A stretch of 64,000 nt of DNA, from NCBI GenBank assembly GCA_021844425.1, contig JAKBTL010000076.1:62001-126000 (forward strand), given 5' to 3'. Made by a program: the position numbers and the translations under genes. The notes under the pieces are model-generated. The model had not been told where the DNA came from, ran no database searches, and saw nothing but the letters and a program-made list of their open reading frames with translations. Shown one piece after another: positions 23,109 through 44,168 of this stretch. Position 1 is the first letter of the stretch; every line of letters starts with the position of its first letter. The DNA comes from Actinomycetes bacterium (lineage in GTDB: Bacteria > Actinomycetota > Acidimicrobiia > Acidimicrobiales > RAAP-2).

Positions 23109-23528
23109 GTGCCCACAGACACGACGACCGCCGAGCCTGTGACGGTATCCGCAGGCGAACCAGGCCCGACGCTCGCCGTGGAGCTGTCGAACCTCTCCAA
23201 GCGCTACGGCGACGTCGAGGCAGCGAAGGGGGTCGCATTCGACGTCGGCCCTGGCGAGATCTTCGCTCTGCTCGGCCCGAACGGCGCCGGGAAGAGCACC
23301 ACCATCGAGACGCTCCGCACGCTCGCCCTCCCGAGCAGTGGCACGGCGAAGGTCGGCGGCTTCGACGTCCGGCGCCAACCGAAAGCCGTCCCTCGCCGGA
23401 TCGGCCTCGTCTTCCAGGAGCAGACGCTCGAGGACGTCTTCCTGCACTTCACGGGTCGTCAGATCCTGGAGGACCACGGGGAGCGGGTGGTGCCGATGGC
23501 CGTGCGCGCACGAGCAGGGCGGCACTGA
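23109..23528 (+). pseudogene. DrrA-type ABC exporter ATPase with its core deleted
   Basis: 139-codon open frame from a GTG. The first part is a normal DrrA-like ATPase: LSNLSKRYGDVEA, Walker A LGPNGAGKSTT, then the Q-loop RIGLVFQEQTL. It then joins directly to EDVFLHFTGRQI, the sequence that closes this family near residue 230-250. The LSGGQ signature, Walker B, D-loop and H-loop, some 150-200 residues, are missing. It cannot hydrolyse ATP. The frame is preserved across the joint, and 'TLED' occurs on both sides in intact relatives, suggesting a deletion between short repeats. Confidence 0.85.
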
Positions 23529-23530
23529 CC

Positions 23531-28429: not shown

Positions 28430-28518
28430 AGCCTCGCCGCCCCGAGCCGACTGCGCAACGTCGCGCCCCAGCGCGTTACCTTGTCCTGCAGCAGGCCCTG
28501 ACGACGAAGGGAGCGACC

Positions 28519-29262
28519 GTGGCGCAACGACCTGTGGAATTCGAGGCTGCAGACGGGAACTGTCAAGCCTCTCTGAGCGTCCCCGAAGGCGACGGGCCCT
28601 GGCCGGCAGTGCTCATGTACGCGGATGCCGGGGGGATGCGCGACACGATGCGGCACATGGGTGAGCGGCTCTCGACGCTGGGCTACGTGGTCCTCGTGCC
28701 CGACTTCTACTACCGCAACGGACCGTACGACCCGGTCGACATGCGCACCGCGTTCTCCACGAAGGAGAGCGCCGAGAAGCTGATGGCCATGATGCAGGGC
28801 TACACGGTGGACATGGCCCTGCGCGACGCCCAGGCGTTCGCGGACTACCTGGACTCCGTGCCCCAGAAGAAGCCAGGTGGCATCGGCATCACCGGCTACT
28901 GCATGGGGGGGCGCCTCTCGCTCCTCAGCGCAGCGTCCCTGGGCACGCGCGCCGCAGCCGCAGCCTCCTTCCATGGCGGGAACCTCGCCAAGGCCGACGA
29001 CCCCGGCAGCCCCCATTACAAGGCCCGCGCCATCAAGGCAGCGGTCTACGTCGCCGGAGCGATCGAAGACCCCTCGTTCCCCGAAGAGCAGAAAGCGCTG
29101 CTCGAGAAGTCGCTGAGCGAGGCGGGTGTCACCCACACCATCGAGACCTACGAAGCGCGCCACGGCTTCGCGGTCCCAGACAACCCGAGCTACGACGTTG
29201 CCGCGGCCGAACGCCACTGGAGAGCCACGGAGCACTTCTTCGGGTCGGCTCTCGGGGAGTGA
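28519..29262 (+). CDS. Dienelactone hydrolase family protein
   Basis: 247-aa alpha/beta hydrolase from a GTG preceded by GAAGGGAGCG. The nucleophile elbow is GITGYCMGGRLS near residue 130 with Cys as nucleophile, the acid region is AGAIEDPSFP, and the catalytic His is in YEARHGFAVPD. The stop codon lies inside the first copy of a 17-bp tandem repeat. Confidence 0.9.
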   Translation: MAQRPVEFEAADGNCQASLSVPEGDGPWPAVLMYADAGGMRDTMRHMGERLSTLGYVVLVPDFYYRNGPYDPVDMRTAFSTKESAEKLMAMMQGYTVDMALRDAQAFADYLDSVPQKKPGGIGITGYCMGGRLSLLSAASLGTRAAAAASFHGGNLAKADDPGSPHYKARAIKAAVYVAGAIEDPSFPEEQKALLEKSLSEAGVTHTIETYEARHGFAVPDNPSYDVAAAERHWRATEHFFGSALGE

Positions 29263-29318
29263 CCCGCCTCGGGGAGTGACCCGCCTCGGGGAGTGACCCG
29301 CCTCGGGGAGTGACCCGC
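29251..29318 (+). repeat. 17-bp perfect tandem repeat, four copies
   Basis: Unit ctcggggagtgacccgc repeated exactly at 29251-29267, 29268-29284, 29285-29301 and 29302-29318. The first copy contains the last three codons and the TGA stop of the dienelactone hydrolase gene, so the repeat grew from the gene's 3' end. Perfect identity implies recent expansion and variable copy number between strains. Confidence 0.97.
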
Positions 29319-29329
29319 CTCGAGAGGCT

Positions 29330-29526: not shown

Positions 29527-30108
29527 ATGGCACGAGGACCGTCGAACAGTTCGGGATGGAGGTGGCTCGGGCCATGGCGGGCGCGTCACGTGCAAGACCC
29601 AGATCGCCCGTGCGCCCGAGACGACCCCTTCGAAGCAGCGACCAGGAGGAGGCGGGGACGCGGCATCAGCCTGGCGCGGCGCCACGAGCGAGAGCTTTCA
29701 CGGGAGGTGGTGGGGGAATGCGAGGCCTTCCTACTTGGACGCTACCTCGAGCACCTCGAGTCCCGTTCGTTGGCGGTGCCCGTATGGGCGTGGACCAACG
29801 TCCTCGCCCACGGGACCTCCGACGACCTGCGCCGGACGGCAGATGACTCCCGAGTGGCCCCGGTCGACACGCGCGAATGGCGGGCAGCACGCGCCTACGT
29901 GGCGGCCGAGCTCCTAGAGGCGACGGCGCGTGGCCAGTCGCTCGCAGACACCCAGCGGCAGCTCATCGTCCCTCTCGAGCTGCGGCTGGCAGCCCGAAGC
30001 GACGTGGAGCGATGGACCCCGCAGCGATGGGTGACGACGGTCCCGTCGTCCATCGCGAGGCGGGTACCGCGCGATCTCAGGAGATACGGCAACACGCGTC
30101 GGGGATGA
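29527..30108 (+). CDS. Conserved hypothetical protein
   Basis: Up to 193 aa. The first ~50 residues are Arg-rich and low-complexity, and the real start is probably internal. From about residue 50 the protein looks genuine: a helical region (EVVGECEAFLLGRYLEHLESRSL), AVPVWAWTNVLAHGTSDDLR, then REWRAARAYVAAELLEA and IVPLELRLAARSDVERWTPQRW. I recall similar uncharacterised actinobacterial proteins but know no function. No membrane segments. Confidence 0.6.
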   Translation: MARGPSNSSGWRWLGPWRARHVQDPDRPCARDDPFEAATRRRRGRGISLARRHERELSREVVGECEAFLLGRYLEHLESRSLAVPVWAWTNVLAHGTSDDLRRTADDSRVAPVDTREWRAARAYVAAELLEATARGQSLADTQRQLIVPLELRLAARSDVERWTPQRWVTTVPSSIARRVPRDLRRYGNTRRG

Positions 30109-30236
30109 GCGCAGCTCCACGTCCTGCTATCTCTCGGGTGTCGTGCGCCACGTGCTGCCTCGGGCGTCGTGCGTCACGTGCAGGCAGGCCGGCCGGCCAA
30201 GCCCGCCTACGTCCAGCGCCGACTGTCCAGCGCCGA
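30109..30236. repeat. Short direct repeats between convergent genes
   Basis: Two imperfect ~26-bp copies (about 30131-30156 and 30157-30182) share the core cgtcgtgcgtcacgtgc with two or three changes. They are followed by a doubled gtccagcgccgact element at about 30211-30238 that runs into the end of the universal stress gene. No coding or RNA signal. Confidence 0.6.
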
Positions 30237-30719
30237 CTACGTCCAGCGGGCGTCGGCCCGGACCACCACGACGGGGCAGTGCGCATGGGTGACCACGCGC
30301 TCGGTCACGTCGCCCAGGAGCCGCTCCGTCGGCTCGCCGTTGCCCTGTCCCTGGCACCCCACGACGAGCAGTGACGCCGAGCTGGACAGCTCGACGAGGG
30401 CCGCGTCAGCCTGGCCTCGAAGCACGTTGGCCGTCACCGTGACGCCGGTGTCGCCGACGACCTCGGCCAGCGTCTCGGCCAGCCTGTTCCTCACGTAGCG
30501 CTCGATCTCGGGACTGACGGGGCCCTCGACGTCTGCCGGCAGCGACCACGCCGACACGGCGAGAAGAGGCGAGCCGACGCGCCGAGCATGTTCGACGGCC
30601 CATGCCAATGCCGCCCGCGCCGCCGGTGAGCCGTCGATGCCGACCACGATCGCACCCGATGTCGAGTCGAAGCGATCCGCCCGTTCGGCGATGCGGGAGA
30701 GCTCGGAACCCAGTGCCAT
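30237..30719 (-). CDS. Universal stress protein, single UspA domain
   Basis: 160 aa from the ATG at 30719. UspA fold with AIVVGIDGSPAARAAL at the start and the ATP-binding G-2x-G-9x-G(S/T)-like region LLVVGCQGQGNGEPTERLLGDV near the C-terminus, ending CPVVVVR. A GGGACC-AA-GGTCCC palindrome 35 bp upstream resembles a DosR/DevR box, suggesting induction by hypoxia or redox stress. The upstream frame is open but non-homologous. Confidence 0.9.
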   Translation of the reverse strand: MALGSELSRIAERADRFDSTSGAIVVGIDGSPAARAALAWAVEHARRVGSPLLAVSAWSLPADVEGPVSPEIERYVRNRLAETLAEVVGDTGVTVTANVLRGQADAALVELSSSASLLVVGCQGQGNGEPTERLLGDVTERVVTHAHCPVVVVRADARWT

Positions 30720-30753
30720 ACTGCATGGTCGCAGCGCGGCACCCCTGAGGAAA

Positions 30754-30769
30754 AGGGACCAAGGTCCCT
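30754..30769. promoter_or_regulatory. DosR-like box between the stress protein and the PGK-like gene
   Basis: AGGGACC-AA-GGTCCCT: seven-base arms in perfect inverted symmetry around two bases. The DosR/DevR consensus core is GGGAC-N4-GTCCC, matched exactly here. It lies in the 189-bp divergent region and could serve both genes. Confidence 0.6.
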
Positions 30770-30908
30770 CCCTCCGCCGTCGAAGCCCGAACCGCGCGAC
30801 GAAGCCTAAGGGCAGCCGCCGGAGGCTCCAGGCCGAAGGGCACTTGTCCACGCGACCTACGGGGCGGAGACTGGGATCGTGCGCGCTGCCGCTGCTCTCA
30901 GGCGCCCG

Positions 30909-32105
30909 ATGGGGCTGCCGACCATCGAGGACCTGCCCGACCCAACCGGCAAGCGCGTGCTCCTCCGAGCGACGCTCGACCTTCCGCTCTCGGCGGACGC
31001 CGACCATCCCCTCGCTCGAGCGCGAGCCGAGGGACTGGCGTCGACGGTACGGTGGCTCGTCGAGCGAGGTGCGCAGGTCACTGTGTGGGGAAGCCCTTGC
31101 TCCCCGCCCCCTACCGATGCCGACGTCGGTGCGGGCATGGATGATCGCTCCGGGGTACCGCGTGCCGCGCGCGGGCGGTTGCCGCACGTCCGGGCGGTGG
31201 TCCGCGAGCTCGAGCCTGTGCTCGCCGGAAGCCCGGCCATTCACGTGCGGACGTGCACCGAAGACTCCAGGGCGGTCGACCGTGTCGCCTCGGAGCACGA
31301 CTTCTTCGTGAACGACAGCCTGCAGGACTCGCTCCTCCCCCTCCCGAGCGTCATGCTTCCTCCCACGCGGCTCCCTTCGGCGATCGGGCGCACGCTGCAG
31401 CGCGACTTGAGCACCCTCGAGCCGCTCACGACCGGGCCGGACCGGCCCTTCGTGGTGGTGCTCGGCGGCGAGCGGACGTACCAGCGCCTCCACGGGCTCG
31501 TCGGGCTCGTCCTGCGCGCCGACGCCGTGCTGCTTGGTGGCGGCCTCGCGCTTGCGATGCTGCAGGCTGTCGGACGCGAGCCGCGCGACGGCGCCGACGA
31601 CGACTTCCTCTGGGAGTGCCGGGAGGTGCTGGGGCTGGCCCAACGGCTTCGTCACCGACTCGTCCTCCCTGACGACCTCGTGTGGGCACACGACGGACCG
31701 GCACGCGTCTCGCGGACCCACACGCATGAAGGCGACCAGGTCGTAGACATCGGGCCTGTCACCTGCGTGCGCTTCGGAGAGGAGCTCCAGGGAGCCGCGG
31801 CGGTGCTCTGGGCCGGCAGCGTCGGGAGGGTCGAACGCGAGCCGTCCCGTGCGGGAACCCGCGCGCTCGCGGCGGCGCTGCGCGAGTCGCAGTCGATCGT
31901 CCTCGGGGGCGACGCTCTCGTCGACCTCCTCTCCCGTGAACGGCTCCAGCCAGCGGCAGCCGCCCTCCTCACCTCCACGGACAGCGCGATCGAGCTGCTG
32001 AAGAGCGGGGGGCTCCCCGCGATCTCTACGATGCGCGACGGCGCGCACCGCCTCGAGATGCGACTGCTCGGTCGGCGCCACGAGCCGAGGGCCGCGCGAA
32101 GCTGA
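30909..32105 (+). CDS. Degenerate phosphoglycerate kinase paralogue
   Basis: 398 aa from the ATG at 30909 (GTG at 30879 is upstream). The order of blocks follows PGK: KRVLLRATLDLPL, TVRWLVERGAQVTVWG, FFVNDSLQDS, RPFVVVLGGERTYQRLHGL, ADAVLLGGGLALAML, VLPDDLVWA, DIGPVTCVRF, VLWAGSVGRVE. Key residues are gone: R-x-DFN-x-P is RATLDLP, HLGRP is WGSPCSPP, NDAFG is NDSLQDS, WNGPxGxFE is WAGSVGRVE, and the nucleotide loops GGGDS and TGGGA are replaced. Catalysis is therefore unlikely; a ligand-binding or regulatory role is possible. It has a full-length, undamaged frame, so it is maintained. Confidence 0.75.
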   Translation: MGLPTIEDLPDPTGKRVLLRATLDLPLSADADHPLARARAEGLASTVRWLVERGAQVTVWGSPCSPPPTDADVGAGMDDRSGVPRAARGRLPHVRAVVRELEPVLAGSPAIHVRTCTEDSRAVDRVASEHDFFVNDSLQDSLLPLPSVMLPPTRLPSAIGRTLQRDLSTLEPLTTGPDRPFVVVLGGERTYQRLHGLVGLVLRADAVLLGGGLALAMLQAVGREPRDGADDDFLWECREVLGLAQRLRHRLVLPDDLVWAHDGPARVSRTHTHEGDQVVDIGPVTCVRFGEELQGAAAVLWAGSVGRVEREPSRAGTRALAAALRESQSIVLGGDALVDLLSRERLQPAAAALLTSTDSAIELLKSGGLPAISTMRDGAHRLEMRLLGRRHEPRAARS

Positions 32106-32150
32106 TGCCGGGCTGGGCAGGGGCGACCGGCCGGATGCTCCCCGTCGGGC

Positions 32151-33326
32151 TCACCCCGCCGCCGGGAGCCCGAACACCGGCCCGAGCCGCCCATGGGCAA
32201 CGGCTTCGGGCTGATCGTCGTCCGGTCCGGTCGCGAACGGCGCGCGCTCGACTGCTCTGTTACCCGTGATCGTGCGGTACAGGCGCTCGTAGGAGTCCAC
32301 CATGACCTCGGCCGAGAACCGCCGCTCCGCCCTTGCCCGGCAGGCGTACGGCGAAAGTCGCCCGGCTTCCGTCACCGCTTCTGCCATGCCCTCGATCGTC
32401 GAGCGGAGGAACCCCGTGACGCCGTCCACGACGATCTCGGGCGCCGCGCCGAGTGGCCTCGCGACGACGGGGGTCCCGCATGCCATGGACTCGGTCATCA
32501 CCATGCCGAACGGTTCCGGCCAGTCGATCGGAAAGACCATGGCCTGAGCTCTTCCGATCACGTCCACCTTCACGTCGTGGGGCGGCTGGTCGAGCACCTC
32601 CACGTCGGCGCCGAGGCGCGGGGCGACGACGTCGTCCCAGTAGGCCAGCTCCGCAGGCTCGCTCCGTTTCACGATCATCGCCAGCGGTAGCCCCGCGAGC
32701 CGGGCGATGTCGATGGCGAGCTCCGGCCGTTTCTCCGGGCTGACCCGTCCGACGTAGACGAGAAACCGCTCCTTCCTCGCTCGGAAAGGGTGGGCGGCGA
32801 GGTCGACCCCGTTGTAGATCATGCCTGAGTAGTGCACGGCAAGGTTGGCCCGGCGCTGGGCGTCGCTGATCGCGACGAGGTGCACGCGTCCGTCGAGCAG
32901 CCTGAAGAGACGCTTCGAGGGCGCCGTCCACGGACCGTGCAGCGTGTGGACGACCGGGACGCGCGGGTAGAGCATCGCGCCGAGCACCGGGCCGTAGCTC
33001 GTGTGGTCGTGGACGAGGTCGAACTGCTCGGCCGCGACGAAGGCTGCTGCCGTGTGGTACTGGTCGTCCGCCAACGATGCCGGGTCGCCGAGAAGCGGCG
33101 CGGCGTCGAGCGGCACGACGAGGCGTGCTCGGGTCCTCGAACCTGGTCCCGCGAACACCGTCACCTCGTGTCCACGCGCCACGAGCCCCTCCGCGAGCAT
33201 GGCGACCACCCGCTCGATTCCGCCGTACGCGGGGGGAGGCACCGGCAGGAACGGGGGCGCGACCAGCGCGATGCGCAGCGAAACGCCGCCGGGCAGGCGC
33301 CAGCCTTGGAACTGTCCTTGTTCCAC
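32151..33326 (-). CDS. Glycosyltransferase family 4 protein
   Basis: 391 aa, GT-B fold. The N-terminal domain starts RIALVAPPFLPVPPPAYGGIERVV, and the C-terminal donor domain has FLVYVGRVSPEKRPELAI, then PIDWPEPFGMVMTESMACGTPVVA with the E-x7-E motif. It transfers a sugar from a nucleotide donor to an unknown acceptor in the cytoplasm. It is the last gene of the minus-strand run that begins at the adenosine-specific kinase, 62 bp after the two-domain stress protein. Confidence 0.9.
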   Translation of the reverse strand: MEQGQFQGWRLPGGVSLRIALVAPPFLPVPPPAYGGIERVVAMLAEGLVARGHEVTVFAGPGSRTRARLVVPLDAAPLLGDPASLADDQYHTAAAFVAAEQFDLVHDHTSYGPVLGAMLYPRVPVVHTLHGPWTAPSKRLFRLLDGRVHLVAISDAQRRANLAVHYSGMIYNGVDLAAHPFRARKERFLVYVGRVSPEKRPELAIDIARLAGLPLAMIVKRSEPAELAYWDDVVAPRLGADVEVLDQPPHDVKVDVIGRAQAMVFPIDWPEPFGMVMTESMACGTPVVARPLGAAPEIVVDGVTGFLRSTIEGMAEAVTEAGRLSPYACRARAERRFSAEVMVDSYERLYRTITGNRAVERAPFATGPDDDQPEAVAHGRLGPVFGLPAAG

Positions 33327-33388
33327 GTCTCCTCCTCGTCCTCATGGCCACCTGCCGGCCGCACCGCTCTGGTGGCCGGGACGCACCA

Positions 33389-34279
33389 TCACGGTGCACC
33401 ATGCGACGCGGCGTCCGGTAGGGCCGTACGTCCCGCGTCGCCAGCCACCGGCAAGAGCAGGACGGGGATCGCCGAGGTGCTCAGCACGTCGCGCACGACG
33501 CGCGCTCGCCCACCAGAGCTGACTTGGGACCAGCTGAGCACGATCATGCCACACGGACCCTTGTCGCAGGCCTCGCGCACGCGGTCCGCGATGGGACCCG
33601 CGCGCAGCAGGATCCGGCTCGCACCCGGACAGTGCTTGGCGAGGAGCTCGCGACCGATCAGCTCGAAGTCCCGAACCGGGTCGTCGAGCATCCGAGGCAA
33701 CGTCTCCTGGGTGAACACGTGCAGCACCTCCACCTCGGCACCGGTCACGAGCAACGGGAACAGCGCCTCGAGGATCGGGCGTGACGAGGACGCCGTGCCC
33801 TCGAGGGGCACGAGCAGGTGGCTCAGCGGCCCTTCCGACCCCTTCGGCGCGACTGGCACGATCACGACGAACTTGCTCGACCGCTCGGCGACGTACCGGG
33901 TCGTGGGGCCGACAGGGTGGCGTCCGCTGCGCTCGAGACCAGCACCGACCACGATCGCGCGCACCTCCGGCCGCACGATCTCGGCGACGAGCGCACGGTT
34001 CGCCGGGCCGTCGATCCGACGAAGCGCCACGCCGGCGCGCCGGGCGAGCATGCAGAGTGTGGCGGGGAGCGATGTGCCGGCGTGCAGGGCTTCCACTCCG
34101 GCACCGATGATCTCAGCGAACTTGACCCCGGTGCCGAGGACCGAGGACGAGGAATCGTCCTTATCGAGCGCCGCGAGGACCACCGGCACCCGTGGGGGCT
34201 CGAGGGCCTGCGGGGGCTCGGGTGACCGGGGCTGCTCGGGGGCCTGCGGGGTCCGTGAGGTCGGTGGGATCTCGGTCAT
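33389..34279 (-). CDS. Two-domain universal stress protein
   Basis: 296 aa from the ATG at 34279, which overlaps the GH65 stop. A Pro-rich N-terminal stretch (~30 residues) precedes two UspA-like halves: VPVVLAALDKDDSS ... AIVVGAGLERSGRHPVGPTTRYV and LSHLLVPLEGTASSSRPIL ... GMIVLSWSQVSSGGRARVVRDVL. The second half ends with STSAIPVLLLP. Coupling to the sugar phosphorylase suggests a joint carbohydrate and stress role. Confidence 0.82.
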   Translation of the reverse strand: MTEIPPTSRTPQAPEQPRSPEPPQALEPPRVPVVLAALDKDDSSSSVLGTGVKFAEIIGAGVEALHAGTSLPATLCMLARRAGVALRRIDGPANRALVAEIVRPEVRAIVVGAGLERSGRHPVGPTTRYVAERSSKFVVIVPVAPKGSEGPLSHLLVPLEGTASSSRPILEALFPLLVTGAEVEVLHVFTQETLPRMLDDPVRDFELIGRELLAKHCPGASRILLRAGPIADRVREACDKGPCGMIVLSWSQVSSGGRARVVRDVLSTSAIPVLLLPVAGDAGRTALPDAASHGAP

Positions 34280-36798
34280 GGCGGGCTCCTCTTGGCGGCC
34301 TTCACGGCCGCGCGCGACGGCGACCCGACGGGGACGACCAGCGGCGCTCCTCCGCGATGTTCGATTTCGGTTCCCGCCACGGCGAGCTGGAGGGGGGCAC
34401 TGGACGCGATGATGACGTCGTCGCGCGACGCGCGCACCTCTACGGGGACCCCCTGGACACGGAAGCGCATCGAGAGCTCGCGCCATGCCGACGGGAGGTG
34501 CGGATCGACGACGACCCTGTGCGAGTCGGTGCGAACACCGAGGAACCCGTAGGCGAGCGCCTGCCATACGCCGCCCATCGCGGCAAGGTGCAGGCCCCCG
34601 GCGGTCGTCCCGGTCACGTCGTCGAGATCGAGCCTGGCGGCGGTTCGGAAGAGGTGCAGCGCCTCGTCCGGCCGGCCCGCCCGGGCAAGGAGCGTTGCCG
34701 AGATGGCTGGAGAGAGCGAGCTGCCGTGCGCGGTCCGGGGTTCGTAGAAGTCGATGCAGCGCTCGAGCGAACCCCGGGGGGGAATTGTCGGCAGCACGTG
34801 ATGGATCATGAGCACGTCTGCTTGCTTGATGAGCTGGGACGCCCGAACGCGCTCTGGGCCGAGCAGGACGTCGATGGCGACCGGCGGGCGGGCGACGTCC
34901 GACACGACGAGCGGCTCCAGCCCGAAGTACCCCGCGAACTGCTCGTAGATGCCCTGCTCGGCAACGAAGCCGTCCACGAGGCGCGCAGCGAGATCACGCC
35001 ACGCTGCGGTCTCCCCCGCACGCGACCCCGCGCGCGACCCCGCACGCGACCCCGCGCGCGACCCCGCAGGGTCGGCGCTCCCGCCACCCGGCCCCTGTAC
35101 CTGGTCCAAGAGGTCCGCAGCGCATCGGAGGTTCCAGCGCGCCATCACATTGGTGAATGCGTTGTCGTCGACCACCTCGTGGTACTCGTCCGGGCCCATC
35201 ACTCCGTAGAGGTGGGCCCGGCCGGCTCGGTCCAGCCGTATGCGGCTCGCCCAGTAGCGAGCGGTCTCGACGACAAGGCCGCGGCCCGGCCCCTCGAGGA
35301 AGGCCCCGTCCCCACTCCACTCGGCGTACCGGACCGCCGCCCAGGCCACGTCGGCCACGATGTGCTCCTCATGGGCTCCGGTGAGGATCGGGATCGGCTC
35401 GCCGTGCGGACCGTGGACGAGGCGGGGGGTGACGTCGCTCCCGTCCCGCGCCGACTCCCACGGAAACCGCGCACCTGTGCGCCCGAGCGCTGCGGCCTGC
35501 GCGCGGGCGGCAGGCAGCCGGCGGATGCGGTACTCGAGCATCGCACGTGCCGCCTCCGGACGCAGCGCGACGAGTGCAGGCAGCACGAACACGTCGGCGT
35601 CCCAGAACACATGGCCGTCGTAGGCGTCGCCGGTCAGGCCACGCGCCCCGACCGCCGCTTCGCCGCCGGCGGAAGCCGCCGCGAGCAGGTGGAACACCGA
35701 GAAGCGAGCTGCGAGCTCGTCCCTGGCCGCCTCGGGACCTCCGACGATCGTCACCTCGGCTCCTCGCCATCGCTGAGCCCATGCCCTGCGCTGCCCGGCC
35801 AACAGGGCATCGAACCCGACGGAGGCAGCGCGTGCGAGCTGCCTCGCCGCACGTCGCTCGGCCGGCGCTCCGTCACGGCCCGTCGACCATGCGCAGAGGC
35901 GCTCGAGGGTGACTCGGTCAGCATCCCCTGCCCACTGCTCGCGTGCAGCGACCGCGAGCGTTCCGAGTGCCGAGCCGCTCGACGCGACCGTGGCGCCTCC
36001 CTGACGCCGGGTGCGCCCACCTCCTCCGTCGGGAACTTCGAGCACGTCCCCGGGCAAGAGCGCGCCGTCGAACGCCTCGGCGCGCAGCGCCATGGCGTGC
36101 AGCTGCTCGCTCGAGACGAAGCGAAGCGAGCGCACACCGGTCTTGGCGTCGACGCGGACGAGGACGCCCGTCCGCAGGTCGACGGCGCCGACCACAGGCT
36201 GCGGCGAGTCGTCCGCCACGTTGGCGACCGTCCAGATCGGTCCGCGGACGAGGCGGCTCCGGTCGTCGTAGAGGCCTGCCGCGGCGAACAGCGGAGACGC
36301 ACGCTGACCCGTGCGCTCGGCCGAGCCGCGTACCCCGACCCTGCCGTTCGCAAGAGTGCCGAGAGCCTCGGTGACCCGCACCTTCGAGGGATCCCGGGGA
36401 AGGGGCACCACCCAACGGGGGTCGTCGTCGACGCCGGGCACACGGCGCGCCGCCCGGCGCTCCAGTTGCGCGTCGAGGATCTCGATGAGCCGGAGCTGAC
36501 CTCCGCCCATCAGCTGCACGCCGGAAGCGACTCCCCCGGTCTGGTCGCCGACCGAGACCGCGACCGCACGGACGAGCTCGTCCACCAGCATCGTCGCGTC
36601 GCTGCCGGGCACGCCGCCGAGAGAGCCGAGCTCGTCGCCGGCGACGAGGACGAGCGAGCCGGTCACCCCCTGATCACCGAGCACGCGCGCCGCGAACCGT
36701 GCCGAGTCGGACCTGGCGGTGAGCGAGAGCTCGACGTACCTCACGTCAGTCGTGACTCGGACGTCGTCGAGCGCGGCCCGGCGCGCCGCACGCCGCAC
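34276..36798 (-). CDS. GH65 glycoside phosphorylase, carrying the C-terminal part of a HAD domain
   Basis: 840-aa frame starting at a GTG inside a 7-bp repeat. Residues 1 to ~115 are not GH65: VTTDVRYVELSLTARSDSAR and VAGDELGSLGGVPGSDATML are the end of a HAD phosphatase, with its motif IV. GH65 follows, with the catalytic-acid block GVMGPDEYHEVVDDNAFTNV near residue 535 and phosphate-binding AHGSSLSP. The enzyme should phosphorolyse a disaccharide such as trehalose or kojibiose. Taken with the HAD frame at 36741 this is one ~1,020-aa HAD-GH65 gene broken by a frameshift. A (GSRA)4 repeat lies near residue 580. Confidence 0.85.
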   Translation of the reverse strand: MRRAARRAALDDVRVTTDVRYVELSLTARSDSARFAARVLGDQGVTGSLVLVAGDELGSLGGVPGSDATMLVDELVRAVAVSVGDQTGGVASGVQLMGGGQLRLIEILDAQLERRAARRVPGVDDDPRWVVPLPRDPSKVRVTEALGTLANGRVGVRGSAERTGQRASPLFAAAGLYDDRSRLVRGPIWTVANVADDSPQPVVGAVDLRTGVLVRVDAKTGVRSLRFVSSEQLHAMALRAEAFDGALLPGDVLEVPDGGGGRTRRQGGATVASSGSALGTLAVAAREQWAGDADRVTLERLCAWSTGRDGAPAERRAARQLARAASVGFDALLAGQRRAWAQRWRGAEVTIVGGPEAARDELAARFSVFHLLAAASAGGEAAVGARGLTGDAYDGHVFWDADVFVLPALVALRPEAARAMLEYRIRRLPAARAQAAALGRTGARFPWESARDGSDVTPRLVHGPHGEPIPILTGAHEEHIVADVAWAAVRYAEWSGDGAFLEGPGRGLVVETARYWASRIRLDRAGRAHLYGVMGPDEYHEVVDDNAFTNVMARWNLRCAADLLDQVQGPGGGSADPAGSRAGSRAGSRAGSRAGETAAWRDLAARLVDGFVAEQGIYEQFAGYFGLEPLVVSDVARPPVAIDVLLGPERVRASQLIKQADVLMIHHVLPTIPPRGSLERCIDFYEPRTAHGSSLSPAISATLLARAGRPDEALHLFRTAARLDLDDVTGTTAGGLHLAAMGGVWQALAYGFLGVRTDSHRVVVDPHLPSAWRELSMRFRVQGVPVEVRASRDDVIIASSAPLQLAVAGTEIEHRGGAPLVVPVGSPSRAAVKAAKRSPP
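35019..35066. repeat. 12-bp in-frame tandem repeat in the GH65 gene
   Basis: Four 12-bp units alternating cacgcgaccccg and cgcgcgaccccg (two 24-bp units), encoding GSRA four times. Copy number change would keep the frame. Confidence 0.95.
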
Positions 36799-37343
36799 GC
36801 CGCACGCCGCACGAGGTCTACGACCCCGGCCAGCCCCGCGATGTCGGCCTTGGCCAGGCGCGTGTCGAGCGCGGACAGCATCTCGGTCCTCCAGGCCTTC
36901 TTCGGGTCCGGCCGATCGGCCTCTGGGATCAGGTCGATCGTGTAGCGGCTCGGTCCGTCAGCAGCCATGTGCACCGTAAGGCCCTTCGCCTCGAACGCAG
37001 CGAGGCTGAGGGCCGCTGCGCGCTCGAGCCCAGCAGCCTCTTGCGGCGTCCAGGACTGACGGAAGACGAGATCGATTCCCCGCGTGTTCGCCCGAAACGC
37101 CTCTGCCCCATGGTTCGCGCACAGGTAGAGACGACCCGGGCCCGACGGCCGAGCCGCGAGCTGCCCGTCGACGTCGTCCACAGACCTCGCGCTCACCACG
37201 AACACGTAGACGCCATAGCGGCAGAGAGCCTCGATCCGCTCGCGCAGGACGCCGGCATCGCTGGCGCGGCCGTCGACCGCGGTACCCTCCCAGTCGAAGA
37301 GGATCCCTTCGAAGGTCGTGTCGAGGGTCTCGGGGATCGTCAC
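36741..37343 (-). CDS. HAD sugar-phosphatase domain, N-terminal part of the split HAD-GH65 gene
   Basis: About 200 codons from a GTG at 37343, preceded by GAGGCGGAGGA. HAD motif I is GILFDWEGTAVDG, where the second acidic residue is Glu instead of Asp; motif II is FVVSARSVDDVDGQ. A trehalose-phosphatase-like arrangement follows (LCANHGAEAF, IDLIPEADRPDPKKAW). After the 7-bp repeat the frame runs into 15 unrelated residues and stops, before motif IV, which lies in the next frame. On its own this part cannot be an active phosphatase. Confidence 0.82.
   Translation of the reverse strand: MTIPETLDTTFEGILFDWEGTAVDGRASDAGVLRERIEALCRYGVYVFVVSARSVDDVDGQLAARPSGPGRLYLCANHGAEAFRANTRGIDLVFRQSWTPQEAAGLERAAALSLAAFEAKGLTVHMAADGPSRYTIDLIPEADRPDPKKAWRTEMLSALDTRLAKADIAGLAGVVDLVRRAACGVRRAGPRSTTSESRLT
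36783..36810. repeat. 7-bp tandem repeat (gccgcac x4) at the HAD-GH65 frameshift
   Basis: Four exact copies on the plus strand; on the coding strand the unit is gtgcggc. The HAD frame enters the repeat in one phase and the GH65 frame leaves it in another. Because 7 is not divisible by 3, two or five copies would join both frames, while four, as here, separate them. Confidence 0.95.
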
Positions 37344-37478
37344 TCCTCCGCCTCGCAATGGCGCCTCTGGCCTCCGACGACGCCGAAGACACGGTGGGGC
37401 GTCACAGACGTCAAGGGGCAGAGGACACTGCCGCGGAGCCCTGACCGGACCGCCCCGCCCTCTCGACCCCCCGAGCGA

Positions 37479-37922
37479 TCACGCGACCGGAAGGGCGCTG
37501 TCGCGGTGGGCGTGGGCGATCTCGGCGGTGATCGGGCGGCTCGGGTCGACCAGGTCCCTCGCCAAGTCGACGAGCAGGTCGTCGACAGTGACCATGCCGA
37601 CGAACTGCCCGTCGCGGACGACTCCGAGCCGGCGGACCCCATGGGTCCAGAAGAGGGCGAACGCCTCGTGAAGATCGGCGTCGGCCTCGATCGAGACGGC
37701 GGGCGAGGTCATGACGTCGTCCACGCGGGCGTCGGGGGACGTGCCCGTGGCGAGCACGCGACGGAGGAGGTCGCGATCGGTCAGGATGCCGCGGAGCCTC
37801 GCTCCGTCGACCACCGCGAGCGCCCCTACGCCGGTGCGCTCCATGACCTGCGCGGCTTCACGGACGGTCTGCTCGGGCCCGACGCCAATGCCCGATCGGC
37901 GAATCGCATCGATCGTTCGCAT
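37479..37922 (-). CDS. CBS-domain pair protein
   Basis: 147 aa from the ATG at 37922. Two CBS motifs: GPEQTVREAAQVMERTGVGALAVVD ... GILTDRDLLRRVLA and VDDVMTSPAVSIEADADLHEAF ... VRRLGVVRDGQFVGMVTVDDLL. Stand-alone CBS pairs bind adenosine nucleotides and often sense energy state. It sits 32 bp after DUF1918 in the same run. Confidence 0.9.
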   Translation of the reverse strand: MRTIDAIRRSGIGVGPEQTVREAAQVMERTGVGALAVVDGARLRGILTDRDLLRRVLATGTSPDARVDDVMTSPAVSIEADADLHEAFALFWTHGVRRLGVVRDGQFVGMVTVDDLLVDLARDLVDPSRPITAEIAHAHRDSALPVA

Positions 37923-37954
37923 GGTGGTCCTCCACTTCTGGGGTGGTCGAGCTC

Positions 37955-38164
37955 TCAGGCTCGGGTGTGCTCGAGGTGCTCGAGGTGCTCGATCGCGGCG
38001 TCTGAGCCAGGGAAGAAGAGCGTCTCGTGCCCGCTGTCGCTCCAGCGCACGAGGTACGGGGGACCCCCGTCCGGGCCGTGCACCTCGATCACCTCGCAGT
38101 CCCGAACGGGCTCGTCGACCCGGTGGCCATTGATCACGATCCGATCGCCGATGTGTGCGTGCAC
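37955..38164 (-). CDS. DUF1918 small protein
   Basis: 69 aa from a GTG at 38164, chosen because AAAGGAGAG lies 4 bp upstream on the coding strand. The sequence HIGDRIVINGHRVDEPVRD, CEVIEVHGPDGGPPYLVRW and HETLFFPGSDA matches the DUF1918 SH3-like family common in actinobacteria. Function unknown. Frequently found near dormancy and stress genes, as here. The His/Glu-rich end (IEHLEHLEHTRA) is encoded by a short gaggtgctc repeat. Confidence 0.85.
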   Translation of the reverse strand: MHAHIGDRIVINGHRVDEPVRDCEVIEVHGPDGGPPYLVRWSDSGHETLFFPGSDAAIEHLEHLEHTRA

Positions 38165-38215
38165 TGAGCTCTCCTTTCTCTCCTCGGCTCGTCTCTCCTC
38201 GCTCGCGTCCAACGC

Positions 38216-38704
38216 TCAGAGCTTGTACCCGATGCTCCGCAGCAGCTCCCTGCGGGCCGACTCGTCCGCCGCCGTCTCGATGCCGGCCGGAGGCATCCCG
38301 TCGATCACGCCGAGCACGGCGCGTCCGAGCTCGGTCTGGGCCACGATGACCTCGACCTGGTTGGACGTAGCGCAGAAGACCGTGACGACCTCGGGAACCA
38401 GCTTGACCGCGTTCAGCACGTTGATCGGGAACCCGCCGCGCATGTAGACGACGAAGACGTGACCGGCGGCGATGGCTTCCGCGTTCCTCGTCGCGAGCTC
38501 CACAAGCTCGCTGTCGTTGCCTGACCGGCGAATGAGGCATGGCCCGGACGCCTCGGAGAACGCGACGCCGAACCGCAGATGCGGCCCGGCACTCGACATC
38601 GCCTCGTGGAGGTCCTCCACCGTCTTGATGAAGTGCGCCTGCCCGATGATCACGTTGACGTGTTCGGCCATCTCGATCGGGACGGCGCTCAGTTCCAGCG
38701 CCAT
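38216..38704 (-). CDS. Adenosine-specific kinase family protein (PF04008/DUF355)
   Basis: 162 aa from the ATG at 38704. Conserved blocks: VIIGQAHFIKTVEDLHEAM, LRFGVAFSEASGPCLIRRSGND, AGHVFVVYMRGGFPINVLNAVK, FCATSNQVEVIVAQTELGRAVLGVIDG. The family is mainly archaeal and named for adenosine binding/phosphorylation in a crystal structure study; its role in bacteria is unclear. First gene of the minus-strand run; 51 bp before DUF1918. Confidence 0.85.
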   Translation of the reverse strand: MALELSAVPIEMAEHVNVIIGQAHFIKTVEDLHEAMSSAGPHLRFGVAFSEASGPCLIRRSGNDSELVELATRNAEAIAAGHVFVVYMRGGFPINVLNAVKLVPEVVTVFCATSNQVEVIVAQTELGRAVLGVIDGMPPAGIETAADESARRELLRSIGYKL

Positions 38705-39145
38705 CACGCCTCCCGCTGAGCGTCGTCGGCCTGCACGGCCGTCGCAAAGAGCACCAGACCCATCGTCGGGCCGGCGCCCTGGCCGGCGACAGGGCCGAAC
38801 GTCACACGTCACCGGCTTCTCCGCGCTCGGCATCTCAGCGCTCGGCGTCTCTGCTGGGAACATCCGCGAATCGTCGGTGTTGAAAAGGTCGGGTGCCCCA
38901 GAACCCATCCGAGGATCCGAGAAGGACCCGGAAGGAGGCAGGGAGGCGTGACCAGGGATTGGTGAGCGAGGCGTACGGTCGTGGGTCGCTCGTCGTGAGC
39001 TGAGCTCGGGACGAGCGGGGCCAGCAATGCGAGGCAGGGCAGTCTTCTCGAAGACGCTGCAGCGGCAAGGGGCCCCGAAGGCTCCGCTGGATTTTCCACG
39101 CCGAACTGCTCATGCACAGTTGAGAAGAGGCGCTCGATTCCTGCG

Positions 39146-39168
39146 AAGGCGCGGGACGGGCGCCTTTT
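39146..39168 (+). terminator. Rho-independent terminator
   Basis: AAGGCGC, a 7-nt loop, GCGCCTT, then TT: a perfect 7-bp stem ending in a run of four T. On the minus strand there is no T-run, so direction is plus. No upstream plus-strand gene is recognised. Confidence 0.65.
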
Positions 39169-39263
39169 CATAATTTTCGCATCCGTGTGGTCCCTGTTTC
39201 GGGTCCGCTCTGTTTCTTGCCCGAATCGTCGACGGCGCACGCGTACCGTCCAGAAAGTGGGAC

Positions 39264-39285
39264 CTGATACCCTCCTGGGTATCAG
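39264..39285. promoter_or_regulatory. CstR-type operator, site 1
   Basis: Nine-base arms CTGATACCC and GGGTATCAG form a perfect inverted repeat around four bases. The core ATACC-N6-GGTAT (39267-39282) is shared with sites at 41699, 42992 and 44499. It lies 27 bp before the small CxxC gene, where it would block or overlap the promoter. Confidence 0.75.
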
Positions 39286-39308
39286 ACTGCGACAACGGGA
39301 GGTCGAGA

Positions 39309-39479
39309 ATGTGCCGTGCCGTGAGGTGCAGGACGTGCGGGAAGACGACGTGGGCCGGCTGCGGCCAACACGTCGACCAGGTGATGCGGCGAGTGCCCGC
39401 GTCCCAGCGCTGCCCTGGCCACCCCAAGCCGACTGGAAGCCGGCAGTCGGTGCTGCGTCGCCTGTTCTCTCGCTCCTGA
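39309..39479 (+). CDS. Small Cys-rich (zinc-ribbon-like) protein
   Basis: 56 aa: MCRAVRCRTCGKTTWAGCGQ, then HVDQVMRRV and QRCPGHPK. Six Cys, with CxxC and CGQH, look like a metal-binding or thiol site. A Shine-Dalgarno GGGAGG is 6 bp upstream. I recall near-identical small proteins widely in actinobacteria, always unannotated or hypothetical. Basic tail RQSVLRRLFSRS. The CstR-type operator in front suggests a role in persulfide or thiol stress. Confidence 0.8.
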   Translation: MCRAVRCRTCGKTTWAGCGQHVDQVMRRVPASQRCPGHPKPTGSRQSVLRRLFSRS

Positions 39480-39486
39480 GACGACG

Positions 39487-40058
39487 TCACCTTTCCAGTC
39501 TCCCGCGCTGCTCCTTCTCGCTCGTCGGGCCGGGTGAGACAGGAAAGAGCAGGTCGTCGAGTGGTCGGTCGTGGGTGAGCGGGTCGGCCACGTCGGCCAG
39601 GAGCGCGCTCACCGTGCACACGCGGAGCTTCTCCGCCTCTTTGACCGGGAGCGTGTCGGTGAGGTGGACGCCACCTGGACCCAGACGCACGATCCGTTCC
39701 ATCGCGCCAGCGACGAGCGGTCCGTGCGTGGCCACGACGGTCGGGCCGACGACGAGGAGGCGGTCCGCCGCGGACGATGCGACGGCATCGGCGAGCGCGC
39801 GAGGGGCGACGGCCTCTCCGGGGTTGCTTCGGAGGTCCTGGCAGGCGTAGCCGAAGTACGGCTCGACGACGCGCTCGCTGACCGGCGGCCCGGTCGACCG
39901 GAAGACGAAAACGTCGTCGTCGCCTTTGCGACGACCGGCCGCAGCTCGCCGTCGGGCAACCGTTCGACCTCGCAGGGAGCCAACTCCGTGCCCACCTCCG
40001 CGGCGACGGCGCTCGTCAGCGCTGCGGGCACCGAGCCGGACACGAGTCGAGCGGTCAT
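39487..40058 (-). pseudogene. PRPP-synthetase-like gene with deletions and a frameshift
   Basis: Starts normally at the ATG at 40058: MTARLVSGSVPAALTSAVA, ELAPCEVERLPDGELRPVVA. A missing base near 39925 shifts to the frame DDDVFVFRSTGPPV. Two in-frame deletions follow: PPVSER joins EPYFGYACQDLRSNPGEAV (about 25 residues lost), and ADRLLVV joins VATHGPLVAG (over 100 residues lost, including the central catalytic and PRPP-binding parts). The C-terminus LTDTLPV ... VSALLADVA ... RPLDDLL is intact. It cannot be functional. Confidence 0.82.
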
Positions 40059-40317
40059 TCGGCACTTCTGCTTGCGCGTTCGAAACGTGTTCCAGCCAGG
40101 TTCCAGGTTCCAGGCTCCGAAGGCCTGGGCGGCGCATCGAAAGCGGTGGGGCCAGGCGTGCCTCAAGGGTCGGCAGCTACCCGGGCCTCCCACAGGGCCG
40201 TTGGTCCCCACGCGGTGCACCTGCCAGGGTCCGTGGAGACCTCGCGGCCATTCTTGGGCCCATCGACCCTGGCGCCGAGCGTCGGCCCGGGGGAAGGTGG
40301 CAGCGGAGGTGGCGATC

Positions 40318-41649
40318 ATGTTCGAAGATCGCGTCGACGCGGGCCGGCGGCTCGCGGAGAGGCTCATCCATCTTCGAGGCGACGGCGTCGTCGTGCTCGG
40401 CCTCCCCCGGGGTGGGGTGCCGGTAGCCTTCGAGGTCGCCAGCGCGCTCGGGGCGCCGCTCGACGTCATCATCGTCCGCAAGCTCGGCGTGCCGTTCCAG
40501 CCGGAGCTTGGGATGGGAGCCATCGGCGAGGGCAACGTGCGCGTGGTCGACGAAGACGTCATCCGGCGTGCAGGGATCACGCAGGCAGAGATCGCGGCCG
40601 TCGAAGCGCGCGAACGGACGGAGCTGGAGCGACGGGCGCAGCGCTTCCGCGGCGACCACCCCCCGGTCCCGCTCTCGGGCCGCACGGCAGTAGTCATCGA
40701 CGACGGCATCGCGACCGGGTCGACCGCTCGGGCCGCGTGCCAGGTCGCGCGAGCCCAAGGCGCGGCCAAGGTGATCCTCGCGGTGCCGGCCGCGCCACGA
40801 GGCTGGGAGTCGCGGATCGGCTCGGATGCCGACGAGCTGGTCAGCCTCGCCACGCCCGAGTCGTTCTTCGCGATCGGCCAGTTCTACGACGACTTTTCCC
40901 AGACCACCGACGAAGAGGTGGTCGACCGCCTTGAGCGAGCGCGCCTCGGCACCCCCGCGGCCGCGCCGTCGAGAGCGGGAACGTACGATCCGCCGACGCG
41001 CGACGAGGACGTCGAGGTCCAGGCCGGCTCCGTGCGTCTGGCAGGGCACCTCGCGCTCCCCGAGCACCCTATCGGGGTCGTGTTGTTCGCCCACGGCAGC
41101 GGCAGCAGCCGCCACAGCCCCCGGAACCGCTACGTCGCCGGCGTGCTCGAGCAGGCGGGGATCGGCACCCTGCTGTTCGACCTGCTCACCGCGGAGGAAG
41201 AGCTCGACCGGGCGAACGTGTTCGACATCCCGCTGTTGGCTCGGCGCCTCTCGGAGGTCACCCGCTGGCTGCGAGGCCAACCTGACCGCGTGAGCCTCCC
41301 GATCGGGTACTTCGGGGCGAGCACCGGGGCCGGCGCGGCCCTGTGGTCGGCCGCGGAACCGGGCGCGGGCGTCGCGGCTGTCGTCTCCAGAGGTGGGCGT
41401 CCGGACCTCGCCGCACCACGCCTCCCCCGGGTCACCGCCCCGACGCTCCTCGTCGTGGGCGGACGCGACGAAGTCGTCTTCGCCCTCAACCGCGACGCGC
41501 AGAGTCAGCTGACCTGCAAGAGCAGCCTGGTCGTCATCCCCGGAGCCTCCCACCTCTTCGAGGAGCCCGGCACCTTGCGCGCGGCCGCAGAGGCCGCCCG
41601 AGATTGGTTCGCCGGCCATTTCGGCTCCGTCCCGGAGCGTGCGGGCTGA
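40318..41649 (+). CDS. Phosphoribosyltransferase fused to a dienelactone-hydrolase-like domain
   Basis: 443 aa from the ATG at 40318. Residues ~1-220 are a type I PRTase: VVVLGLPRGGVPVAFEVA, VRKLGVPFQPELGMGAIGEG and the PRPP loop TAVVIDDGIATGSTARAA. Residues ~235-440 are an alpha/beta hydrolase: GVVLFAHGSGSSRHSPRN, IGYFGASTGAGAALWSAA (nucleophile elbow) and VIPGASHLFEEPG. Fusions of this type are common in actinobacteria, often next to stress genes and PRPP-synthetase-like genes; here that neighbour is the decayed divergent gene. Substrates unknown. Confidence 0.88.
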   Translation: MFEDRVDAGRRLAERLIHLRGDGVVVLGLPRGGVPVAFEVASALGAPLDVIIVRKLGVPFQPELGMGAIGEGNVRVVDEDVIRRAGITQAEIAAVEARERTELERRAQRFRGDHPPVPLSGRTAVVIDDGIATGSTARAACQVARAQGAAKVILAVPAAPRGWESRIGSDADELVSLATPESFFAIGQFYDDFSQTTDEEVVDRLERARLGTPAAAPSRAGTYDPPTRDEDVEVQAGSVRLAGHLALPEHPIGVVLFAHGSGSSRHSPRNRYVAGVLEQAGIGTLLFDLLTAEEELDRANVFDIPLLARRLSEVTRWLRGQPDRVSLPIGYFGASTGAGAALWSAAEPGAGVAAVVSRGGRPDLAAPRLPRVTAPTLLVVGGRDEVVFALNRDAQSQLTCKSSLVVIPGASHLFEEPGTLRAAAEAARDWFAGHFGSVPERAG

Positions 41650-41698
41650 CTGGCACAGAGAGGTCGCACGGGCACGAGAGCGGGGCTGATCGGCGGGA

Positions 41699-41714
41699 AT
41701 ACCCCGGCAGGTAT
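41699..41714. promoter_or_regulatory. CstR-type operator, site 2
   Basis: ATACC-CCGGCA-GGTAT, the same ATACC-N6-GGTAT pattern, 100 bp before the thioredoxin gene. Confidence 0.7.
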
Positions 41715-41813
41715 GGTCGTTGTGCTTGGTCGGAGCTGCGAGGCAGCTCTCGGAGCAGGTCCGAGGCGGCCGTTCCAACAGCCGGCCCGAGAGAGGGCCG
41801 AGAGGGAGGCACC

Positions 41814-42185
41814 ATGGCTACGGTGGCGTTGAACAACGAGAACTTCGAAGAGACCGTGAAGTCGAACGAGACGGTGCTCGTCGACTTCTGGGCCAGTTGG
41901 TGTGGGCCGTGCCGCATGTTCGCCCCGGTCTTCGAATCGGCGTCGGTCGAGCATCCTGACATCGTGTTCGCGAAGGTCGACACCGAAGCCGAGCAGGAGC
42001 TCGCTGCGCGCTTTGGGATCATGTCGATCCCCACGCTCATGGCATTTCGCGACAACATCTTGCTGTACGCCCAGCCCGGAGCGCTGCCTGGTCACGTCCT
42101 CGAAGAGCTGATCACCAAGGTGAAGGAGCTCGACATGGACGACGTTCGCCGCCAAGTCGAAGAACGGGCAGGCGCCGCGTCGTAA
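41814..42185 (+). CDS. trxA: Thioredoxin
   Basis: 123 aa from the ATG at 41814 after GGGAGGCACC. Thioredoxin fold with FWASWCGPCRMFAPV active site, VDTEAEQELAARFGIMSIPTLM and the cis-Pro. A ~15-residue C-terminal extension (MDDVRRQVEERAGAAS) is beyond the usual domain. It would reduce disulfides or persulfides in the cytoplasm. The operator site 2 upstream suggests regulation by the persulfide sensor. Confidence 0.93.
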   Translation: MATVALNNENFEETVKSNETVLVDFWASWCGPCRMFAPVFESASVEHPDIVFAKVDTEAEQELAARFGIMSIPTLMAFRDNILLYAQPGALPGHVLEELITKVKELDMDDVRRQVEERAGAAS

Positions 42186-42228
42186 GCGCCGGCGCTGGAA
42201 CGCTGGCTACCCGGACGCATCGCTCAGG

Positions 42229-42313
42229 ATGATCGCCCGACGACTCGGCATGCGCCATGATCGCCCGGTGACTGCGGCACGCGCCATGATCGCCCGGTGA
42301 CTGCGGCACGCGC
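42229..42313 (+). repeat. Three tandem ~29-bp repeats overlapping the PIG-L gene start
   Basis: Copies at 42229-42256 (28 bp, diverged), 42257-42285 and 42286-42313; the last two are near identical. Each begins atgatcgcccg. The GTG start of the deacetylase gene lies in the third copy, so each copy brings a possible start region. No coding across the repeat. Confidence 0.92.
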
Positions 42314-43001
42314 ACCGAGAAGCCACGACCTCCCGTCCGCCAGATCGGTCCTGGCGGTCTGCGCGCACCCCGACGACGAGAGCTTCGGCTTGGGAGCCGT
42401 GCTCCACCGCTTCGTCGAGGGCGGCGCCCAGGTGGCCTTCCTCTGCTTCACCCGAGGCGAGGCGTCCACCCTGGGCACCCCCGGACCTGCGCTGGGTGAG
42501 CTGCGTCGCGCCGAGCTCACGCGTGCGGCCGCTGAGCTCGGCGTACGCCGGGTGGAGCTACTCGAGCATCCCGACAGCTCGTTGGCCTCCGAACCGCTCG
42601 AGGTGCTGGCCAGAGAGGTGGCGGACATGACCGCCGAGGCCGAGGCCGATCTCGTGGTCGTCTTCGACGACGACGGCGTCACCGGGCATCCCGATCACCG
42701 GCGCGCCACCGAGGCAGCTCTTGCCGGCGCGCCGGAGCTGCCCGTGCTGGCGTGGACTCTGCCCCGCCAGGTTGCCGACACGCTGAACGACGAGCTCGGC
42801 ACGTCGTTCCGGGGGCATGACGAGCACGCGATCGACATCGTCCTGCACGTGGACCGCACCATCCAGCGCCGCGCGATCGCCTGCCACGAGAGCCAATGCG
42901 ACGGCAACCCTGTGCTGGCGCGTCGCCTCGCCTTGCTCGGGGACGACGAGTGCCTCCGCTGGCTCCGTGCACCTGGGTGCGGCATGCCTACATACGGGTA
43001 G
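42297..43001 (+). CDS. PIG-L family deacetylase
   Basis: 234 aa from a GTG. Metal-binding motif AVCAHPDDESFG near residue 20 and TGHPDHRRA near residue 130 define the LmbE/PIG-L fold. Members deacetylate GlcNAc conjugates in mycothiol (MshB) or are mycothiol S-conjugate amidases (Mca). The setting among thiol genes favours a mycothiol-related substrate, which is inference. The end of the gene contains operator site 3. Confidence 0.88.
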   Translation: MTAARAPRSHDLPSARSVLAVCAHPDDESFGLGAVLHRFVEGGAQVAFLCFTRGEASTLGTPGPALGELRRAELTRAAAELGVRRVELLEHPDSSLASEPLEVLAREVADMTAEAEADLVVVFDDDGVTGHPDHRRATEAALAGAPELPVLAWTLPRQVADTLNDELGTSFRGHDEHAIDIVLHVDRTIQRRAIACHESQCDGNPVLARRLALLGDDECLRWLRAPGCGMPTYG

Positions 43002-43007
43002 GGGTAT
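42992..43007. promoter_or_regulatory. CstR-type operator, site 3 (one mismatch)
   Basis: ATACG-GGTAGG-GGTAT: matches ATACC-N6-GGTAT except one base. It overlaps the stop codon of the deacetylase gene and lies 55 bp before the rhodanese-MBL gene. A TATATA stretch at 43005-43010 may be its -10. Confidence 0.65.
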
Positions 43008-43061
43008 ATAGTGAGAAGATCGACCCTGACCATCGATCCTGAACCTGCACGGAGGAGACCG

Positions 43062-44168
43062 ATGAACGTTGGCCCCGGAGCAGTGCCCGAGATCACCGCC
43101 ACAGAGCTGGCAGCAGTGCTCGGGACCCCCGACGCCCCAGAGCTGCTCGACGTCCGAGAGCCAGAGGAGTTCGACGCGTGGGCGATGGCCGGCGCGCGCA
43201 ACGTCCCCCTGGCGCGATTGGCGACGGAGATCGACGACGTCGTGGGGGATCGCGAAGTCGTCGTGATCTGCGCGAGCGGCTCGCGGTCCGCGCGAGCGGT
43301 CGTGGCGCTGCGCTCGGCGGGGATCCCGGCACGCAACCTGGCAGGCGGGATGCTCGCATGGGCCGCCGTCTACGACACCGCGATCCTCGAGCTCGGCGCG
43401 GCGCGCGTCGTCCAGGTCCGCCGCCGGGGCAAGGGCTGCCTCTCCTATGTCGTCGGCGCGAAGAACGAGGCGTTCGTGGTCGATCCTTCGCTCGACGTCG
43501 AGCACTACCTCGGCGTGGCCGAACAGCACGGATGGCGGATCACCCGGGTGTTCGACACCCACTTGCACGCCGACCACCTGAGCGGCGTCCGCGCGCTGGC
43601 CTCGGCGACGGGAGCCTCGGTGCACCTGAACCCTGCCGACGGCTACCGCTTCCCCTTCGAGCCGCTCGACGACGAGCAATGGTTCAGCCTCGGGGGCCAA
43701 GAGCACTTCGTCGTGACGGTCCTGCGCTCCCCCGGCCACACGCCGGGCTCGACGATCTACGAAGTGGGCGGCCGCGCGCTGCTGACCGGCGACACCCTGT
43801 TCGTCGACGGCGTGGGCCGCCCGGACCTCGCGGACCATGCGGAAGCCTTCGCCCGTGAGCTCCACCGATCCTTGCACACCAAGGTGATCGCGATGCCGGT
43901 GGACGCGACCGTGCTTCCCGCCCACTACGGCGAGACGGTCGCCGTCACGCCGCACAAGGTCGTCGGTGCGTCGCTCGGAGAGCTCCGCTCCTCCCTTCCT
44001 CAGCTCTCGTGGCCCGAGGACCGCTTCGTGGAGTGGGCGTCCAGCCGGGCCCGGCCGCGACCGCCCCACTACCGCGAGATCGTCAGCGTGAACGCCGGCG
44101 CCGCTCCGGCTCCGCTCGTCGACGACCTGCGCCGGCTCGAGCTCGGACCGAACCGCTGCGCCGCGTGA
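43062..44168 (+). CDS. Rhodanese-metallo-beta-lactamase fusion, persulfide dioxygenase-like
   Basis: 368 aa from the ATG at 43062 after GGAGGAG. N-terminal rhodanese domain: PELLDVREPEEFDAWAMAGA and the active loop VVICASGSRSARAV (Cys). C-terminal MBL domain: FDTHLHADHLSGVRALA, VTVLRSPGHTPGSTIYEV, LLTGDTLFVDGVGRPD, AHYGETV, the ETHE1-type Fe site. Predicted to oxidise glutathione, mycothiol or CoA persulfide to sulfite, with the rhodanese moving sulfane sulfur. The usual PDO fusion order is MBL first; here it is reversed. CstR-type operator upstream. Confidence 0.87.
   Translation: MNVGPGAVPEITATELAAVLGTPDAPELLDVREPEEFDAWAMAGARNVPLARLATEIDDVVGDREVVVICASGSRSARAVVALRSAGIPARNLAGGMLAWAAVYDTAILELGAARVVQVRRRGKGCLSYVVGAKNEAFVVDPSLDVEHYLGVAEQHGWRITRVFDTHLHADHLSGVRALASATGASVHLNPADGYRFPFEPLDDEQWFSLGGQEHFVVTVLRSPGHTPGSTIYEVGGRALLTGDTLFVDGVGRPDLADHAEAFARELHRSLHTKVIAMPVDATVLPAHYGETVAVTPHKVVGASLGELRSSLPQLSWPEDRFVEWASSRARPRPPHYREIVSVNAGAAPAPLVDDLRRLELGPNRCAA

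Follow-up and report, generated by a model that had tools for sequence, protein, structure and literature searches.

Is a short tandem repeat at the point where two out-of-phase reading frames part a reversible switch, or the trace of a mutation that broke a single gene? The question was raised by the window, a stretch of 64,000 nucleotides from the draft genome (G000) of an Acidimicrobiaceae-type actinobacterium, in which a HAD-like frame and a GH65 frame, lying in different phases, separate at a run of 7-bp copies. The original prediction saw here a possible phase-variable HAD-GH65 fusion gene with four exact copies of the unit at the point of separation, and four exact copies were indeed found; read on the minus strand, the array is (GTGCGGC)4 followed by two bases. 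The features concerned are the following.

36784-36813, minus strand: 7-bp tandem array, period 7, 4.3 copies, 100% matches; 14 bp longer than in the relatives G001 and G005.
37358-36741, minus strand: HAD-like N-terminal frame of 205 aa, cut off after the array.
36798-34276, minus strand: GH65 frame of 840 aa, holding a HAD motif IV remnant and then the GH65 N-terminal, catalytic and C-terminal domains.
36744-36741, minus strand: GTGA overlap of the HAD stop (TGA) with a GTG of the GH65 frame, a candidate termination-reinitiation start.
35014-35068, minus strand: second array of the same gene, with 12/24-bp units, in frame, giving SRAG repeats inside GH65.

The HAD frame probably starts at GTG 37343, opposite the Met of G001 in the alignment. 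As had been proposed, the two HAD motifs fall in different frames, motif I (FDWEGT) in the HAD frame and motif IV (GDELGSLGGVPGSD) in the GH65 frame. Frame arithmetic, done by hand, also bore out the idea that two or five copies would restore one frame, since a single frame is obtained only with copy numbers of 2 modulo 3 (2, 5, 8). The two-copy state would give a junction segment of 19 residues (VVDLV...DDVRV), and this segment has 19 residues in G001 (VVELVRHAAGRAGLENPRA) and in G005 (VVELARLVARRAGLADPRV) too.

The comparison with relatives showed which state is the exception. The closest relative, G001, is a metagenome-assembled genome from the same genus; it is syntenic with the window at 83% DNA identity and carries the homologue as a single frame of 1051 aa; in G005 it is a single frame of 1037 aa. 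The sole frame-breaking indel in coding sequence between the window and G001 was the 14-bp addition at the array, exactly two units, and the remaining indels within the gene, at the 12/24-bp array, added 33 bp in total and kept the frame. HAD and GH65 lay in one gene in all of the 19 homologues aligned, members from Chloroflexi and Deltaproteobacteria included, and in none of the 19 was the frame broken at the junction. The claim that the two frames were once a single gene was thus upheld, the fused frames being intact in G001, G005 and other homologues and a two-unit change having broken the window copy. In domain order and junction length the gene in the window agrees with the intact fusion proteins (G001, G005, G034, G086, G093 and others), and it differs from them in that its frame is split in the HAD domain, so that one open frame no longer spans both halves, and in that the motif I Asp has become Glu. 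A search of the literature on HAD-GH65 fusions gave no match.

The array itself was also confined to the window. At the junction G001 has a single GTGCGGC followed by a divergent heptamer, which indicates that relatives are without the array, and no tandem array was seen in the junction of any homologue examined, G001 and G005 included. A lineage-specific expansion of 14 bp in a heptanucleotide array therefore splits the fusion gene, and this event is real. We also considered a dispersed (GTGCGGC)n element and rejected it for exact copies, the exact three-copy pattern occurring in G000 solely at the HAD-GH65 locus; GC-rich stretches similar to the array were found elsewhere in the genus.

To place the array among others of its kind, perfect arrays with a period of 4-30, at least 3 copies and at least 20 bp were surveyed in 551 kb (the window plus sampled contigs). 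This gave 61 arrays, or about 110 per Mb, the longest of 133 bp, and as five Markov-5 simulations contained 0 arrays each, the array cannot be put down to chance. In samples from other genera, all small, the density was 0 to 64 arrays per Mb, and it was 8 per Mb over a likewise small set of 68 loci taken from other genomes; the density in G000 is unusual and the other sampled genomes were mostly lower. The period was divisible by three in 42 of the 61 arrays. In a simple coding model the best coding frame was the same on both sides for about 16 of 38 arrays with such a period and for 2 of 16 frame-shifting ones. By ORF layout, of the 16 frame-shifting arrays examined over 0.55 Mb, only the one at 36784 splits a gene; the others lie between genes or at gene ends. 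A genome-wide set of contingency loci was rejected on these two grounds, coding frames and ORF layout, and the pattern agrees with slippage as a general process, frame-breaking arrays being selected against, and not with a set of switches. Lineage-specific tandem insertions were common, examples being the 12/24-bp array in the HAD-GH65 gene, a 17-bp array at 29251 and an addition of 12 bp at 24364. The 17-bp array (29251-29322, 4.2 perfect copies) lies at the end of an ORF at 28381-29259 and is lineage-specific relative to G001.

What the broken gene could still do depends on its two halves. The GH65 frame matched Glyco_hydro_65m (PF03632) at E 2e-101, over the cut-off, together with PF03633 and PF03636, and its translation contains MGPDEYH; it thus has the catalytic Glu motif and all three domains (N-terminal, catalytic and C-terminal). 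Its best match among solved structures was kojibiose phosphorylase (PDB 3wiq; residues 316-798, E = 3.9e-85), the chain of which, at 764 aa, is too short to hold a HAD domain of the window type as well. Searched by itself, the 205-aa HAD frame matched nothing in Pfam or NCBIfam. For an active HAD phosphatase one expects a motif I of the form DxDxT/V and intact acidic residues in motif IV; the window has DWEGT, with the acid/base Asp replaced by Glu, and the GDE...GSD of motif IV is present but in the other frame.

Against G001, dN/dS was 0.49 for HAD before the array, 0.66 for HAD after it and 0.22 for GH65. Canonical HAD motifs (DWDGT, GDEFG..GSD) were kept in G034, G015, G086, G092, G093, G062 and G064; motif I is degraded in the genus of the window (DWEGT, DWRGT, GWAGT), both aspartates of motif IV are gone from G001, and motif I and/or IV is degraded in about half of the homologues, among them several genera besides that of the window. 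The HAD half of the family lies almost always within open frames of about 840-1400 aa, and GH65 frames standing alone without HAD occur in G014, G018 and G033; identity over the GH65 frame was 57-84% in an alignment of five members. The contrast in dN/dS, the degraded HAD motifs, the retained GH65 domains and the stand-alone GH65 frames together suggest that the HAD half is under weak constraint and that the enzyme could work without it. The idea that a switch would uncouple phosphatase from phosphorylase activity is also doubtful, given DWEGT at motif I here and the missing motif IV aspartates of G001. The GH65 of G067 switches frame close to its 3' end, an event unrelated to the present one, and the G013 locus has kept only a HAD remnant, both of which indicate that the HAD-GH65 gene decays sporadically. 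Several genera have lost or altered motifs I/IV while keeping the fused frame (homologues L002-L009 and L057-L067), and part of the HAD domain is absent from G024, G067 and G117, the frame being unbroken there.

A further comparison is with Mycobacterium tuberculosis OtsB1 (Rv2006), a large actinobacterial protein in which HAD/phosphatase-type and GH65 domains are joined. It can be likened to the window gene by description, but it differs in having 1327 aa and a trehalose-phosphatase domain. A review reports that phosphatase activity is absent from OtsB1 and that its deletion has no obvious phenotype (PMC11046441).

If GH65 is made on its own, the place of its start matters. The start codon proposed earlier, a GTG within the array, does exist in the GH65 frame (36798), but it makes a weak start as no Shine-Dalgarno sequence precedes it. 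Stop/start overlaps of the GTGA type are a layout used for termination-reinitiation, and the overlap at 36744-36741, which is likewise without a Shine-Dalgarno sequence, makes GTG 36744 the better candidate for an internal start; judged from the sequence, a stand-alone GH65 may be translated by re-initiation there.

The HAD-GH65 gene is not the only damaged one. An ABC transporter (23050-24411, plus strand) is broken twice relative to G001, where both genes are intact: the ABC-2 permease frame breaks at 23917, beside a G run, where one base is missing, and in the ABC ATPase a deletion between short direct repeats has removed about 600 bp, with its junction near 23424-23434. Because these two genes are also broken, the HAD-GH65 break does not stand alone, as would be expected from decay by slippage or, with lower probability, from noise in the assembly.

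Our preferred explanation is that a recent expansion by slippage probably disrupted a HAD domain under weak constraint, that GH65 is possibly re-initiated, and that no dedicated on/off switch is involved. A formerly single fusion gene would have gained two units (+14 bp) by slippage between 7-bp direct-repeat copies, presumably during replication and not long ago, and the frame would thereby have been broken in the HAD domain. The break would be tolerated because the HAD half is weakly constrained in this clade and GH65 presumably remains useful, perhaps as a separate product of re-initiation at the GTGA overlap. One competitor is an error of assembly or consensus in the draft, the true copy number being 2 or 5 and the gene intact. 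The genome is in 138 contigs with about 92% completeness, its GC content is 70%, and a second nearby gene has the 1-bp break beside the G run, all of which speak for it. Against it, an array of 30 bp fits within a usual short read, the length difference amounts to exactly two whole units, a search of G000 turned up no alternative contig of the locus, and clean lineage-specific arrays are found throughout the genome. We regard such an error as unlikely, while accepting that the consensus could be erroneous or could represent just one of the states present in a mixed population. It is extremely improbable that the full fusion is still produced by a -1 ribosomal frameshift within the overlap (36957-36741): moving from the HAD to the GH65 frame does take a -1 step, and the two overlap by about 210 nt, but inspection by eye of this GC-rich overlap found no A/T-rich slippery heptamer and no homologue breaks frame at the site.

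The reading with which the locus was introduced, a phase-variable contingency locus, holds that slippage at the array can fuse HAD and GH65 and part them again, so that some cells would make the fusion and others only GH65 or no product at all. Like the contingency loci that vary by slipped-strand mispairing of simple sequence repeats (SSRs), the window has a short tandem repeat with a unit not divisible by three inside coding sequence (36784-36813), and its two extra units relative to relatives can be counted as a further likeness; the genome is prone to tandem expansion. That layout, and the fact that GH65 and HAD show no further disabling change and the gene no other frame break, as would also be expected of a reversible switch, count against the slippage-mutation explanation. 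A study of Haemophilus SSRs took >2 copies as the threshold for 7-bp units, which the array exceeds, but the heptanucleotide promoter arrays of the hmw1a/hmw2a switches have 13-38 copies in the strains listed there, so that 4.3 copies is short (PMC2651432). Tandem-repeat copy number varies among subpopulations of another actinobacterium, M. tuberculosis, but in promoters (PMC12817950). Unlike known SSR contingency loci, the window offers a single allele (G000 has one copy of the locus, and no second copy number was found in its assembly); both the array and a frame break are missing from the site in G001, G005 and the other homologues examined; the product looks like an intracellular sugar enzyme rather than a surface structure or a modification enzyme; and the other frame-shifting arrays in 0.55 Mb split no genes. 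In the GeneTack survey of prokaryote frame transitions, moreover, isolated cases were considered likely indel mutations or sequencing errors (PMC3711429). The claimed switch is therefore not borne out, and we hold phase variation here to be distinctly unlikely. The fuller version, in which the low-copy 7-bp array is a reversible HAD/GH65 phosphorylase switch, one of the slippage-prone arrays of a tandem-repeat-rich environmental acidimicrobial genome, is very unlikely.

On the slippage-mutation explanation, the locus illustrates clearly, through the comparison with relatives, how the expansion of a tandem repeat can break a fused gene, here in a domain whose catalytic motifs were already being lost. 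The density of perfect arrays in G000 makes slippage a visible force on its genes. Should the copy number turn out to vary in populations, the locus would instead be an uncommon case of a metabolic contingency locus outside host-associated bacteria.

The surroundings of the gene, at 30000-44000, contain genes for universal stress proteins, a CBS protein, a PGK-like protein, an adenosine-specific kinase, a phosphoribosyltransferase-hydrolase and thioredoxin, a cluster that may resemble the mycobacterial DosR set. The PGK-like protein (30882-32102, plus strand) matches only positions 122-350 of the PGK Pfam model, its N-terminal part being divergent, and a frame similar to it is open in G001.
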